Source of the DNA: an archaeon | Lineage (GTDB): Archaea > Nanobdellota > Nanobdellia > Pacearchaeales > GW2011-AR1 | Assembly: GCA_018697295.1 (NCBI GenBank) | Contig: JABHTJ010000002.1 | Coordinates: 154,027-218,026, forward strand | DNA: 64,000 bases | Direction: 5' to 3' | Shown here: positions 18,011 through 47,886 of the stretch, in pieces | Position numbering within the stretch: position 1 is the first letter of the stretch | How the letters are laid out: each line of letters opens with the position of its first letter | The notes under the pieces: model-generated | Seen by the model: the letters and a program-made list of their open reading frames with translations, nothing else | Told to the model about the DNA's origin: nothing | Database searches by the model: none | Position numbers and translations under genes: made by a program

Positions 18011-19438
18011 CTATTCTAAAACTTTTTTCAAAATACCCATTACTTCTTTTCCACTTACCTGGCCCTTGAATTTTCCCATAACAAGCCCCATGTAAGCTCC
18101 AGAACTCAAATTTGGTTTTTCCTTAATTATTTTTCTTACTTCCGAATCTAAATCTATGTCGGACTTTTGTAATGCTTCATCTAAAGTTTTTCCTGAAGCA
18201 ATATTTTTCATAACTACCTTAACATCATTTGCTGCAATTGTTGAACCGACTTTTTCTAGAATGTCTTCTAATGTATGTGCGTTAAATATTTTGTTAAGTT
18301 CTTCTTTTGATAAATTTTGTTTCTTCGCAATTTCTTTTTGAAATAATGTTAGCATTTTTGCGATTAGTTCTGTGTTGTCAGAAGTTTTATTTAAGATTTT
18401 GAAATCTTCTACTTTCTTTTCTTTGAGAACTGCCTTAACTAGTTCTTCGTTTAGTCCAAACTCTGCTAAAAATGATTTATGTTCTGATGATAACTTCGGC
18501 AAATTCTTTTTAGCCGTATCCATTTGTTCTCTTGAAATTTTGAGAAGTGGCGTATCTGTTTCTGGATACATTCGTGCACTTCCTGGCATTGGGCGCAAAA
18601 ATTCACTTTTTCCGTTTGGAAGAGCTTTTCTTACTTCATTTTTACAAGAATTATTTTTTACACATTCAATTTGTCGCGAGACTTCTCCATCAATTATTTT
18701 TTCAAACATTTTTACATCTTGGAATCCCTTTATCTCAACTCGTTTGCTCTTTGCAATAGAAATATTTACATCTTGCCTGATTGTTCCAATTCCTCGTTTA
18801 ACGTCGCATGCCCGTAAGATTTCTCCAATTTTTAGTGCTGCTTCTTTTATTTGTTCTGCACTTTTTAGATCCGGATATGTTGTGATTTCGACCAATGGAA
18901 TTCCTAGGCGGTCAAGTTTATACGTTTTTGTTTCTTCGCTTGTTTGTACTTTCCTTGCCGAATCTTCTTCTAGCGCGATTGATTCAATTCGAACACGGCC
19001 CTCTTTTGTTTCAATGTATCCGTCGTGAGCAATCATAACAGTTCTTTGAAATCCGGAAGTGTTTGAACCATCGATTACGGTTTTTCTCATGATCTGAGAT
19101 ACTGGGAAAATTTTTGCGTTAAGGAGCGTTGCTATTTGTAGTGCGATTTTTAATGCATTTTGATTTATTGGCCTTGGAGGTTCTTCATCTAATTCGACTA
19201 AACAATTTGTATCGAAGACTTGGTAGATGAATTCTTTATTTTGTTCGTGTTCATGGAGTGCGGCAATGTCTACAACTCCTGTTTCTCCGATAACTGGGTT
19301 TAGAATTCTATTGATTTCATATTCTGGCTCGTCGCTTCTAAGTATTGAAGGACAAGAACAAAATAATTTATGAGTGTTTAATTGTTGATGAATTTCAAGA
19401 CCGCTTTTGAGTCCGACTTTTTTGTAATCATGTTCCAT
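18011..19438 (-). CDS. gatE: Glu-tRNA(Gln) amidotransferase subunit E
   Basis: GLKSGLEIHQQLNTHKLFCSCPS, NCLVELDEEPPRP, FPVSQIMRKTVIDGSNTSGFQRT. Confidence 0.9.
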   Translation of the reverse strand: MEHDYKKVGLKSGLEIHQQLNTHKLFCSCPSILRSDEPEYEINRILNPVIGETGVVDIAALHEHEQNKEFIYQVFDTNCLVELDEEPPRPINQNALKIALQIATLLNAKIFPVSQIMRKTVIDGSNTSGFQRTVMIAHDGYIETKEGRVRIESIALEEDSARKVQTSEETKTYKLDRLGIPLVEITTYPDLKSAEQIKEAALKIGEILRACDVKRGIGTIRQDVNISIAKSKRVEIKGFQDVKMFEKIIDGEVSRQIECVKNNSCKNEVRKALPNGKSEFLRPMPGSARMYPETDTPLLKISREQMDTAKKNLPKLSSEHKSFLAEFGLNEELVKAVLKEKKVEDFKILNKTSDNTELIAKMLTLFQKEIAKKQNLSKEELNKIFNAHTLEDILEKVGSTIAANDVKVVMKNIASGKTLDEALQKSDIDLDSEVRKIIKEKPNLSSGAYMGLVMGKFKGQVSGKEVMGILKKVLE

Positions 19439-19445
19439 TACTATC

Positions 19446-20111
19446 TTAATGAGTCAAGGATTTTAAAGATTGTTGTTTGATACTTTCGTAAAATTTTTTA
19501 GCTGAGATAAAATGTGGAAGTCTGAGTTTTCTTGCTATTTCTCTAGAATTTTTTCTATACCCATATAATGCAATTGGAGTTATTTTCACCGGATTATGAA
19601 AAATTACTTCATTATATTCTACAAGTCGATATTTTTGTTTTGGTAAGAGTTTATAGCCATTTTTTACTCGGAATTTGTTTACTTCCTTCCATGCAGTTTC
19701 TGGCGAAGGAAATTTTTCGAGCATTTCTTTAGCCGTTTTACAGATGAATTTTTCAAAACCAGAGATTAGTTCCTGATTATAATATTGGTGAAGGTTATTT
19801 TTTATTCGATAGTATTGGACAATTATTTTATTAGTTTTAGTGAGGAGGATTAAATCGAATGGAGATACATAATCTGGCTTGTCTTTTGTTTTAAAAATTA
19901 TTCCTTGTTGACGGTAAGTTTTTGTATAATTTTTACTCAATGCCGTACATGCAAGTCTGCTTTTCTTTCCAAAACTTTTTGTATTTGGATTAATTTTTTT
20001 AGTCTTAATTATATCCTCGATTGATTGAAAATCTACTTTCTTTTTTGCCCTTAATGTTTTAGAAATAAAATCTTCTTCCAGGGATTTTACATAGAATACT
20101 TCTTTTTTCAT
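19446..20111 (-). CDS. Hypothetical protein (221 aa) between gatE and gatD
   Basis: ORF, no recognised family. Confidence 0.55.
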   Translation of the reverse strand: MKKEVFYVKSLEEDFISKTLRAKKKVDFQSIEDIIKTKKINPNTKSFGKKSRLACTALSKNYTKTYRQQGIIFKTKDKPDYVSPFDLILLTKTNKIIVQYYRIKNNLHQYYNQELISGFEKFICKTAKEMLEKFPSPETAWKEVNKFRVKNGYKLLPKQKYRLVEYNEVIFHNPVKITPIALYGYRKNSREIARKLRLPHFISAKKFYESIKQQSLKSLTH

Positions 20112-20161
20112 AATTTGTTAAGTGGTTAGTTATCCTTAAAGGTTTCTAAAAGATTTTTTTA

Positions 20162-20238
20162 GATTCTCAATTGACGTCTCGTACGCCTATTTTGAATTGC
20201 GCCACGACGCTCCTCGTTCACGGTGGCGCTTGACAATC
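20162..20238 (+). repeat. 77-bp structured repeat, copy 1
   Basis: About 77% identical by hand alignment to 47764-47840, same length; closed by TTAGATTcTCAA/TTGAcAATCTAA stem (20159-20241). Confidence 0.75.
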
Positions 20239-20303
20239 TAAGAAGTTTTAATTCGCAAAAACATTTATATAACCTTAATTCATTATAATGTTAAGGAGGT
20301 AAA

Positions 20304-20558
20304 GTGATGAAATTAGCAAATATCAAATATAAATCTGCAGTGTTCTTTGGAGTGTTCGTGTTTATTTCGGCAGTTCTTCAGACATTAGTTTCTCATCTTG
20401 CATATGGTTTAGCGAATGCGAGCATGCTCGATTTATATCTTTTGAATCCATTAAAAAGTGCGGCAATTATGTATATAACATTTTTTGTTGCAATTTATAT
20501 CTATAATCTTTTAGCAAAGAAAGGATATGGATTTTCTTGGGAGATGTCCAAGAAATAA
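20304..20558 (+). CDS. Small membrane protein (84 aa)
   Basis: Two hydrophobic segments; TATA-like TTTATATAA and AAGGAGGT upstream. Confidence 0.6.
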   Translation: MMKLANIKYKSAVFFGVFVFISAVLQTLVSHLAYGLANASMLDLYLLNPLKSAAIMYITFFVAIYIYNLLAKKGYGFSWEMSKK

Positions 20559-20575
20559 ATTTTTTTATTTTTACT

Positions 20576-21859
20576 TTAATTTTTTAAATTGGGGTTAAAT
20601 TCCCCTGAAATATTTTCTAGCATTTTTTCTTTAATGCTTTTTTTCCAATTTGGATGGGCGAGAACCCATGAAAGTTTTACGAAGGCTGTTTCTGAGAGCA
20701 TATCATCTAAGAAGATTATTCCGGTTTTTTGTAATTGCCTTCCTGCGGAATAAACATTTGGGTTGAGGTTTCCAAATATTGTTTGAGCCGTTGCACAAAT
20801 TATCATTCCTGAAGATATTGCTTTTTTTATTTTTGGAATCCAATTATTTTTGGAATCTTTGCTTGGAACATGGCCAAGTCCTGTTGTTTCAAGAATTAAT
20901 CCTTTGTACCCATTCTTCTGATACCATTCTATAATGCCTGGGTCTTGTCCAGGATAAATTTTTATGATTGCAACATCTGGAGAATACTTAATATCCATTT
21001 TTACTTTTTTTGTTTTGTCTTTTGCTTTAAACTCTTTTAAAATTTCAAGATTTATTTTTTCTTTTGATTTTGCTATTTTTGCAATTGGTGATGTATTGAT
21101 TGCCTTGAATGCATCTCTTTTTGATGAATGCATTTTTCTTGTTTTTGTGGGATTTATTGCAATGCATGAATTATCGTTTGAATCTGCATGACCTATAATT
21201 GCAATTTGGGCAATGTCTGATGTTGCATACTTTGCAGAACATAACAAATTAAGATATGCGTCGGTTGAGCCTCTGTCAATTGATCTTTGAGAATACGTGA
21301 TTGCAATTGGTTTGTTTAGTTGTTTAATAAAAAATGAGAGTGCAGTTCCGGTATATGAAATCGTGTCTGTTCCTTGGGCAATTATTATTCCGTCGATAGA
21401 TTCATCATTTAATAATGGTTCAATTGTTTTTGCAATCTTTATCCAATGGAAACTACTCATATTCTCTGAAAGTGCGAGGAATGGTTTTTTGATAGTTGTT
21501 ATGTTTGCTATATCTTTTATTTCTGGAACAATATTTAGAATTGCTTGTCCGTCTGTAGGAATTACTGCCCCAGTTTTTGAATCAAGACGAGAAGAAATTG
21601 TTCCTCCAGTAATTATTAATGCGATATTTTTTTTATCTTTGTTTATCTCTGGTTTGAACTCTTTTTTTGGAAGTTCTTTAGATTTTTCTAATAATTTTGC
21701 ATTTAGGATTTCGTTTTCTCTAATTCCAATGTTATATCCTGATTGGAGCTTTAGGAGAATTATTTCTGGGTCGTGAGATTCTAAGACATAACCTTCCCAT
21801 TCTCTTGTTTTTGTTTTGAACAAGACTTTATCTCCCGGAGCGTATACTTTAGTTTTCAT
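20576..21859 (-). CDS. gatD: Glu-tRNA(Gln) amidotransferase subunit D (asparaginase-like)
   Basis: ALIITGGTISSRLDSKTGAVIPT, IIIAQGTDTISYTGTALSF. Confidence 0.92.
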   Translation of the reverse strand: MKTKVYAPGDKVLFKTKTREWEGYVLESHDPEIILLKLQSGYNIGIRENEILNAKLLEKSKELPKKEFKPEINKDKKNIALIITGGTISSRLDSKTGAVIPTDGQAILNIVPEIKDIANITTIKKPFLALSENMSSFHWIKIAKTIEPLLNDESIDGIIIAQGTDTISYTGTALSFFIKQLNKPIAITYSQRSIDRGSTDAYLNLLCSAKYATSDIAQIAIIGHADSNDNSCIAINPTKTRKMHSSKRDAFKAINTSPIAKIAKSKEKINLEILKEFKAKDKTKKVKMDIKYSPDVAIIKIYPGQDPGIIEWYQKNGYKGLILETTGLGHVPSKDSKNNWIPKIKKAISSGMIICATAQTIFGNLNPNVYSAGRQLQKTGIIFLDDMLSETAFVKLSWVLAHPNWKKSIKEKMLENISGEFNPNLKN

Positions 21860-37830: not shown

Positions 37831-37944
37831 TAATTTCTTTCTTTTTGGCAAAAAGAAATTTCTCTTCCACCCAATTGGTGTGCCCCTGTTAGGGCAAAGT
37901 AGAAAAACTTATTCCAAAACTTTGTTTTGACATTTAATTCCATT

Positions 37945-46061: not shown

Positions 46062-46130
46062 CTTTTTATTACTTATAGTAAGTGGTTATTGTTTATAAAA
46101 TTTGGGTTTTTTGTCGGTTTAGGATTTATC

Positions 46131-46156
46131 GTTTTTGGCAACGTGTTACCAAAAAC
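46131..46156. promoter_or_regulatory. 26-bp near-perfect dyad, candidate operator
   Basis: GTTTTTGGCAACGTGTTACCAAAAAC between divergent genes 46061(-) and 46304(+). Confidence 0.45.
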
Positions 46157-46303
46157 TCGAGAGGGTGCAGTTTGTGAGTGCCTAGGTTTTGTGTTGTTGG
46201 TTGGTACTGGATTAATCCGATTAGGAATAATCTAGTTGGGTTGGTTAGATTGGGTGCGGTTTAGTACAACAATTCCTTTAAACTCTAGTCTAATTCTAAA
46301 AAC

Positions 46304-47749: not shown

Positions 47750-47763
47750 TGGATTGACTTATC

Positions 47764-47840
47764 GATTGTCAATAGCGCTTTTGTAGCGCTATTTTGTATT
47801 GCGCCACGACGCTCTTTTGTCGCGGCGGCGCTGGACAATC
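47764..47840 (+). repeat. 77-bp structured repeat, copy 2
   Basis: GATTGTC...GACAATC closing stem; internal AATAGCGC/GCGCTATT and GCGCC/GGCGC hairpins; homologous to 20162-20238. Confidence 0.75.
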
Positions 47841-47886
47841 AACAAAATTGTTAAAAGATTTTTTTGAAAATATTTAGTGGAAATAT

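Follow-up and report, generated by a model that had tools for sequence, protein, structure and literature searches.

A structured palindromic repeat of Pacearchaeota, probably a non-autonomous mobile element, with in-frame copies in pheT and nre

Palindromic elements that enter genes in-frame are best known from Rickettsia. The Rickettsia palindromic elements (RPEs) are short and lie both between and inside genes, including in-frame within housekeeping genes, where the encoded protein gains a segment (PMC10969869). REPs and REPINs are mobilized by RAYT (TnpA-REP), and a single-stranded DNA intermediate at the replication fork has been proposed for them (PMC3116915, PMC6006769). Members of the IS200/IS605 family target the lagging-strand template (PMC6006769); such targeting would fix orientation by replication. 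Integrons, with their folded attC sites, occur in archaea (PMC9668308). The element described here is a palindromic non-autonomous repeat that we do not file as a REP, an RPE or an attC site. It lacks the sequences that define REPs and attC sites. In what it does to proteins it resembles RPEs, and in the way it probably moves, REPINs or IS200/IS605 elements.

The window, i.e., the whole 64,000-nucleotide stretch analysed (C6:154027-218026), is part of the 255-kb contig C6 of a DPANN archaeon, whose genome (a MAG, 85% complete) comprises 731,777 bases in nine contigs. Two copies of the element lie in the window (Table 1), and a recount of their ungapped alignment returns the 59 identities over 77 positions given by the initial annotation. 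From 5′ to 3′ the element consists of the outer-stem 5′ arm, hairpin 1 (5-7 bp with a small loop), a conserved unpaired linker (TTTGTATT in the host genome and about TGCTGTT in the second genome described below), hairpin 2 (GCGCCA.. stem, tip CGCTCTNCGTTCGC) and the outer-stem 3′ arm. It measures about 77 nt and reaches about 150 nt with nested hairpins; homology among copies ends at the outer stem, so that the element is a discrete unit. Copy 2 is 86% identical to the copy at C6:97807 over 77 nt. The fold drawn by the initial annotation coincides with the minimum free energy structure of copy 2; that of the plus strand of copy 1 contains the outer stem and hairpin 2, but a shorter hairpin 1. 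Copy 1 is located between divergent ORFs (19446-20111, minus strand; 20304-20558, plus strand), in agreement with its earlier assignment to a divergent promoter region; this is, however, not a property of the element, because copy 2 sits between convergent genes. Archaeal GatD and GatB/GatE-type genes adjoin copy 1: positions 18011-21859 of the window hold a gatE-type gene, a 221-aa ORF and gatD on the minus strand, and a gap within this region accommodates copy 1 together with an 84-aa plus-strand ORF with TATA-like and Shine-Dalgarno-like sequences.

Table 1 Copies of the element in the host genome and parts of the two copies in the window (window positions; contig positions marked C6)
Feature	Position	Strand	Evidence
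Host-genome copies	C6:74578, 97804, 125191, 129398, 174185 (copy 1), 201787 (copy 2)	all +	BLAST, covariance model
Copy 1, whole element	20162..20238 (C6:174188-174264)	+	59/77 to copy 2; covariance model match 20159-20242, E 6e-23
Copy 1, outer stem, 5′ arm GATTCTC	20162..20168	+	helix 1; two-sided changes at all 7 pairs
Copy 1, hairpin 1	20170..20190	+	helices 2-3, covarying
Copy 1, conserved single-stranded linker TTTGAATT (family: TTTGTATT / TGCTGTT)	20191..20198	+	alignments
Copy 1, hairpin 2, conserved tip CGCTCCTCGTTCAC	20199..20229	+	helices 4-5
Copy 1, outer stem, 3′ arm GACAATC	20232..20238	+	helix 1
Copy 2, whole element	47764..47840 (C6:201790-201866)	+	covariance model match 47761-47844, E 1.6e-24
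Copy 2, outer stem, 5′ arm GATTGTC	47764..47770	+	fold and covariation
Copy 2, hairpin 1, palindrome AATAGCGC...GCGCTATT	47772..47792	+	fold and covariation
Copy 2, conserved single-stranded linker TTTGTATT	47793..47800	+	alignments
Copy 2, hairpin 2	47801..47831	+	fold and covariation
Copy 2, outer stem, 3′ arm GACAATC	47834..47840	+	fold and covariation

Searches for further copies used BLAST and the covariance models R1, built from five copies, and R2. Six copies were identified in the host genome (E 5e-10 to 2e-24), one of which (C6:125191) has a hairpin 2 longer by about 30 bases, and nine in ‘Candidatus Pacearchaeota archaeon ARS50’ (NYZR01; G077; 62% complete), a member of the same family but of another genus. 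The weaker ARS50 copies, on contigs C10, C18 and C26, were accepted at whole-genome E-values of 2e-4 to 6e-2, with parts of hairpin 1, linker and hairpin 2 visible. These 15 copies, and the covariation among them, support the original description of a dispersed structured repeat. The copies are spaced 4-45 kb apart and form no array, and the genes that flank them are unrelated from copy to copy. All six host copies are confined to C6, for which arithmetic from the sizes gives a chance of about 0.002; this clustering is not explained by the mobile-element reading preferred below.

Occurrence of the element is patchy, with two positive genomes among the 181 searched in the family. No convincing further member was obtained from the other family genomes or from 200 genomes of the order, and a more sensitive covariance model search of 38 relatives, 15 of them from the host's genus, was empty. 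The 378 genomes sampled from the class gave no match except the host genome, which is consistent with sporadic acquisition. Across 84,980 named species, a pattern scan for hairpin 2 matched three ARS50 contigs only (C21, C25 and C49). Weak matches in G031 (L033), in G045 (L024) and at C6:68978 were rejected as members, the last being a different structured repeat, F2. Searches of Rfam at the gathering threshold and at E 0.1 returned tRNAs only and no match to the element. Neither ARAGORN nor a tRNA model recognized it, which bears out the earlier statement that it is not a tRNA. Plasmid and phage records contained no match, and two structural patterns had none in viral contigs, where a 16-mer gave 27 exact matches, by our own estimate about the chance level, none of them recognized by the covariance model. 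A limited literature search retrieved no description of such elements in Pacearchaeota.

What is conserved in the element is its structure rather than its sequence. Covariation was assessed in the R2 alignment of 16 rows, i.e., the 15 copies plus, as a separate row, one copy's inverted hairpin-2 tip. Standard pairs occupy 92.4% of the pair cells compared with 73.3% in shuffles, two-sided changes occur at 19 of the 24 pairs and all three main helices covary. The number of cells with two-sided changes is 66 where shuffles predict 17.4, and the covariation score is 0.462 versus 0.169, a value that none of 500 shuffles attained; structures shifted by 1-3 columns as a control gave pairing of only 23-60%. 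The covariation that the initial annotation had noticed in hairpin 1 thus persists with more copies, and is significant in the enlarged set. Neither of the two outcomes that the annotation had named as refuting it, a lack of further copies and covariation short of significance, therefore occurred. The R2 alignment was fitted to the covariance model, a bias toward structure; despite this, the outer stems of the ARS50 copies are unrelated in sequence, yet complementary over 8-10 bp. Across the alignment the outer stem pairs in 95.6% of cells despite such unrelated sequences, e.g., GATCGTGCA/TGCACGATC and GATGATGCAA/TTGCATCATC. Two ARS50 copies (C49 and C40) have no clear outer stem, and two copies (C6:125191 and ARS50 C18) carry further small hairpins within hairpin 2. 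The ARS50 C26 copy has an inverted hairpin-2 tip, its hairpin 1 and linker being oriented as in the other copies, a state to be expected of a hairpin that had at some time been extruded or single-stranded.

Two in-frame copies in ARS50 argue most strongly for the element being an insertion. One (C49:15040-15102) lies within a 571-aa ORF with the B5 and CLM domains of the PheRS beta subunit according to Pfam, i.e., pheT, and the other (C15:9337-9421) within an ORF of 488 aa whose domains are Nre_N and Nre_C, i.e., nre. Both are antisense to the host gene and are read in different frames. In PheT, residues 1-441 and about 472-569 are matched by the orthologues of relatives, which have few residues between these two parts, and Nre orthologues align up to residue about 323 and resume at about 370, with short gaps between. 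The spacing between the aligned flanks is about 2-14 aa in the orthologues (about 25 genomes each) compared with 30 aa (PheT) and 46 aa (Nre) in ARS50, and in the multiple alignments PheT has a net excess of about 26-27 aa and Nre one of about 35 aa. The extra stretches are about as long as the element with its outer stem, and the same positions are empty in relatives.

Like RPEs, the element is a short, palindromic, dispersed repeat with a stable structure and with in-frame genic insertions that are absent from the orthologues (pheT and nre). The likeness concerns behaviour only; the host is an archaeon, and no descent from RPEs is claimed. Compared with RPEs, the archaeal element is shorter (77 versus about 150 bp) and has two hairpins on a stem, and it is antisense to both host genes, in different frames, and constant in its orientation to the GC-skew strand. 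A PheT insert in a relative from another genus (G028, C23, L063), in-frame in the same loop, was examined as a candidate and is unrelated to the element: it is a GCGATTTCGC hairpin repeat, composed of GAGCGATTTCGCGAAGG hairpin repeats, and is hardly repeated elsewhere in the 99 kb sampled.

As established for GC skew in general, the skew strand is taken here to mark the replication strand, a positive skew denoting leading-strand sequence and hence the lagging-strand template. The orientation of the element follows the sign of the skew in all 15 copies (6/6 in the host and 9/9 in ARS50; binomial p 6e-5). Each of the nine ARS50 contigs has a uniform skew of one sign with an absolute value of 0.27-0.38. 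Genes on either strand share this skew (0.388 and 0.251 after flipping), which is therefore a feature of the replication strand and not of coding. Among ARS50 ORFs of at least 100 aa, 68 are co-oriented and 64 opposed, and among the tRNAs four are co-oriented and five opposed. Since neither is biased, the orientation of the element does not follow transcription in ARS50, and an origin merely from gene strand is rejected there; with nine copies, the comparison of element and tRNA orientation reaches a Fisher p of only 0.03. On C6 the skew is positive up to 245 kb in all 5-kb bins but one, which is zero, and it has a gene-strand component (0.242 in plus-strand genes and -0.03 in minus-strand genes). 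Because genes (141:70) and tRNAs (12:3) also favour the plus strand of C6, only ARS50 separates replication from transcription; C6 provides a weaker test, and the orientation argument rests mainly on ARS50. The end of the contig outside the window, C6:245000-255147, has a G+C content of 48-52% and no GC skew, the preceding 245 kb having mostly 33-38%; it may be foreign DNA, rRNA or a joining error.

The unrelated contexts, the antisense copies within genes, the patchiness and the skew-strand orientation point to mobile DNA for which the folded form is important, and mobility is suggested in particular by the patchy occurrence and the empty sites. We therefore favour, with moderate confidence, a palindromic mobile element of DPANN archaea that is non-autonomous and probably inserted as folded single-stranded DNA at replication forks; conserved structure, entry into genes, sporadic distribution and strand-fixed orientation all fit such movement, which has been described for IS200/IS605 and proposed for REPINs (PMC6006769, PMC3116915). 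Each copy would arise by insertion of the folded single-stranded form, always of the same strand, at the fork and on the side of the lagging-strand template, through a putative structure-reading single-stranded DNA enzyme acting in trans. Insertion of this kind would make the fold the property that selection preserves and would let fork direction set the orientation. Once inserted, the element is probably passive (selfish), being tolerated in intergenic gaps and protein loops.

The element shares with REPINs its non-autonomous nature, compensatory changes in structure and extragenic dispersal. It differs from them in that it is not composed of two inverted copies of one REP, that its orientation is fixed and that no RAYT/Y1 gene was found in either element-bearing genome (85% and 62% complete), where searches for the IS200-like Y1 transposase (PF01797) were negative while positive controls matched. 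The GTAG/GGAG tetranucleotide at the hairpin foot is not conserved, occurring in 4 of 15 cores and in three of these only within hairpin 1. Like the ends of IS200/IS605 elements (IS608 and ISDra2), which have subterminal hairpins read as single-stranded DNA, the element is defined by hairpins, but there is no transposase gene between them, most copies have an outer stem, and neither a conserved 5′ target sequence nor a recurrent target was seen among the copies. With attC sites, which are folded single-strand recombination sites, it has in common one constant orientation and probably the folded single-stranded form; in contrast to a cassette array its copies are 4-45 kb apart, and the attC core GTTRRRY is present in none of the 15 copies and the paired RYYYAAC core is absent. 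Terminal inverted repeats would be expected of a classical MITE derived from a DDE transposon; the outer-stem arms of the element are inverted repeats, but they differ among the ARS50 copies and are missing in two, and no target-site duplication or consistent flanking direct repeat is found across the copies. A more specific version, in which a structure-defined element enters the lagging-strand template as one folded strand by means of a non-Y1 enzyme and adds in-frame loops to essential proteins, with the repeats F2-F4 described below possibly of the same class, appears to us rather unlikely in its entirety.

The functional RNA implied by the initial annotation agrees less well with the unrelated contexts, the antisense in-frame genic copies, the patchiness and the skew-strand orientation. 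In its most explicit form the element would be a multi-copy family of genes for trans-acting small RNAs, oriented along replication like many RNA genes; strong structure and covariation are in line with this, as is the plus-strand location of 12 of 15 tRNAs on C6. The plus strand also has 9 G-U pairs versus 3 A-C cells or mismatches, a weak hint that this is the strand that folds. We nevertheless regard small RNA genes as quite unlikely: two copies lie antisense inside pheT and nre and lengthen the proteins, the copies share neither a promoter nor any upstream sequence, their similarity ending at the outer stem, the sequence of that stem can change entirely, hairpin 2 accepts about 30 to 70 nt of additional sequence, no relatives retain the element at the same place, and in ARS50 4/9 tRNAs are co-oriented compared with 9/9 copies. 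A cis-acting mRNA element, i.e., a REP-like terminator or 3′-end stabilizer that owes its spread to an influence on the adjacent upstream gene, would account for the copies at C6:74578, 125191 and 201787, which start 4-12 nt past a stop codon, and for the copy at 97804, which directly adjoins a minus-strand gene at its end, and the ARS50 C21 copy, which overlaps a gene end. It becomes improbable in view of the copies between divergent genes (C6:129398 and 174185) and inside genes, of the ARS50 copies on C34, C40, C26 and C18, which are opposed to both neighbours, and of the lack of a consistent T run at the 3′ side.

The strict orientation with the GC-skew strand and the clustering on one part of the host chromosome could also be read as the signature of a DNA site with a chromosomal role in oriented replication, segregation or repair. 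Chromosome-maintenance sites are, as a rule, short, without structure and conserved throughout a genus, whereas this element is absent from nearly all related genomes, has few copies and lands in essential genes, which makes a chromosomal role highly improbable. Hairpins of an AT-rich genome may resemble each other, but E-values down to 1e-24, gapless 77-nt matches and the same order of parts in 15 copies leave chance similarity of GC-rich palindromes with practically no weight, and the covariance model E-values and the ARS50 copies refute it.

If the mobile-element reading is correct, the Pacearchaeota element offers a small, searchable system for how hairpin elements that lack an enzyme of their own move via single-stranded DNA, and for how such repeats add segments to essential proteins. 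It deserves attention that in archaea with reduced genomes structure rather than sequence is kept, and that orientation is apparently fixed by replication; left unannotated, the repeat can cause errors when genes and RNAs of DPANN genomes are annotated.

C6, the one contig of the host genome analysed over its whole length, carries three other structured repeats, each with all copies on the same strand, which could be other members of the element's class. F2, about 100 nt long, has three plus-strand copies (C6:68977-69076, about 134064-134150 and 153728-153826), the last of which ends about 200 bases upstream of window position 1. Its outer stem (TTTTTATTTTCA/TGAAAATAAAAA) varies in sequence between copies with pairing kept, and its inner stem is AAAATTTTC..GAAAATTTT, with a covarying tip. 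F3 has two plus-strand copies, one intergenic in the window at 46128-46189 (C6:200154-200215) and one at C6:99647-99709, and forms a perfect hairpin (GTTTTTGG.AAC..GTTACCAAAAAC) with a conserved 3′ flank. The two copies of F4, also structured, have the same orientation and are 74% identical over 112 nt; one lies between genes in the window at 37836-37943 (C6:191862-191969) and the other at C6:104341-104446.
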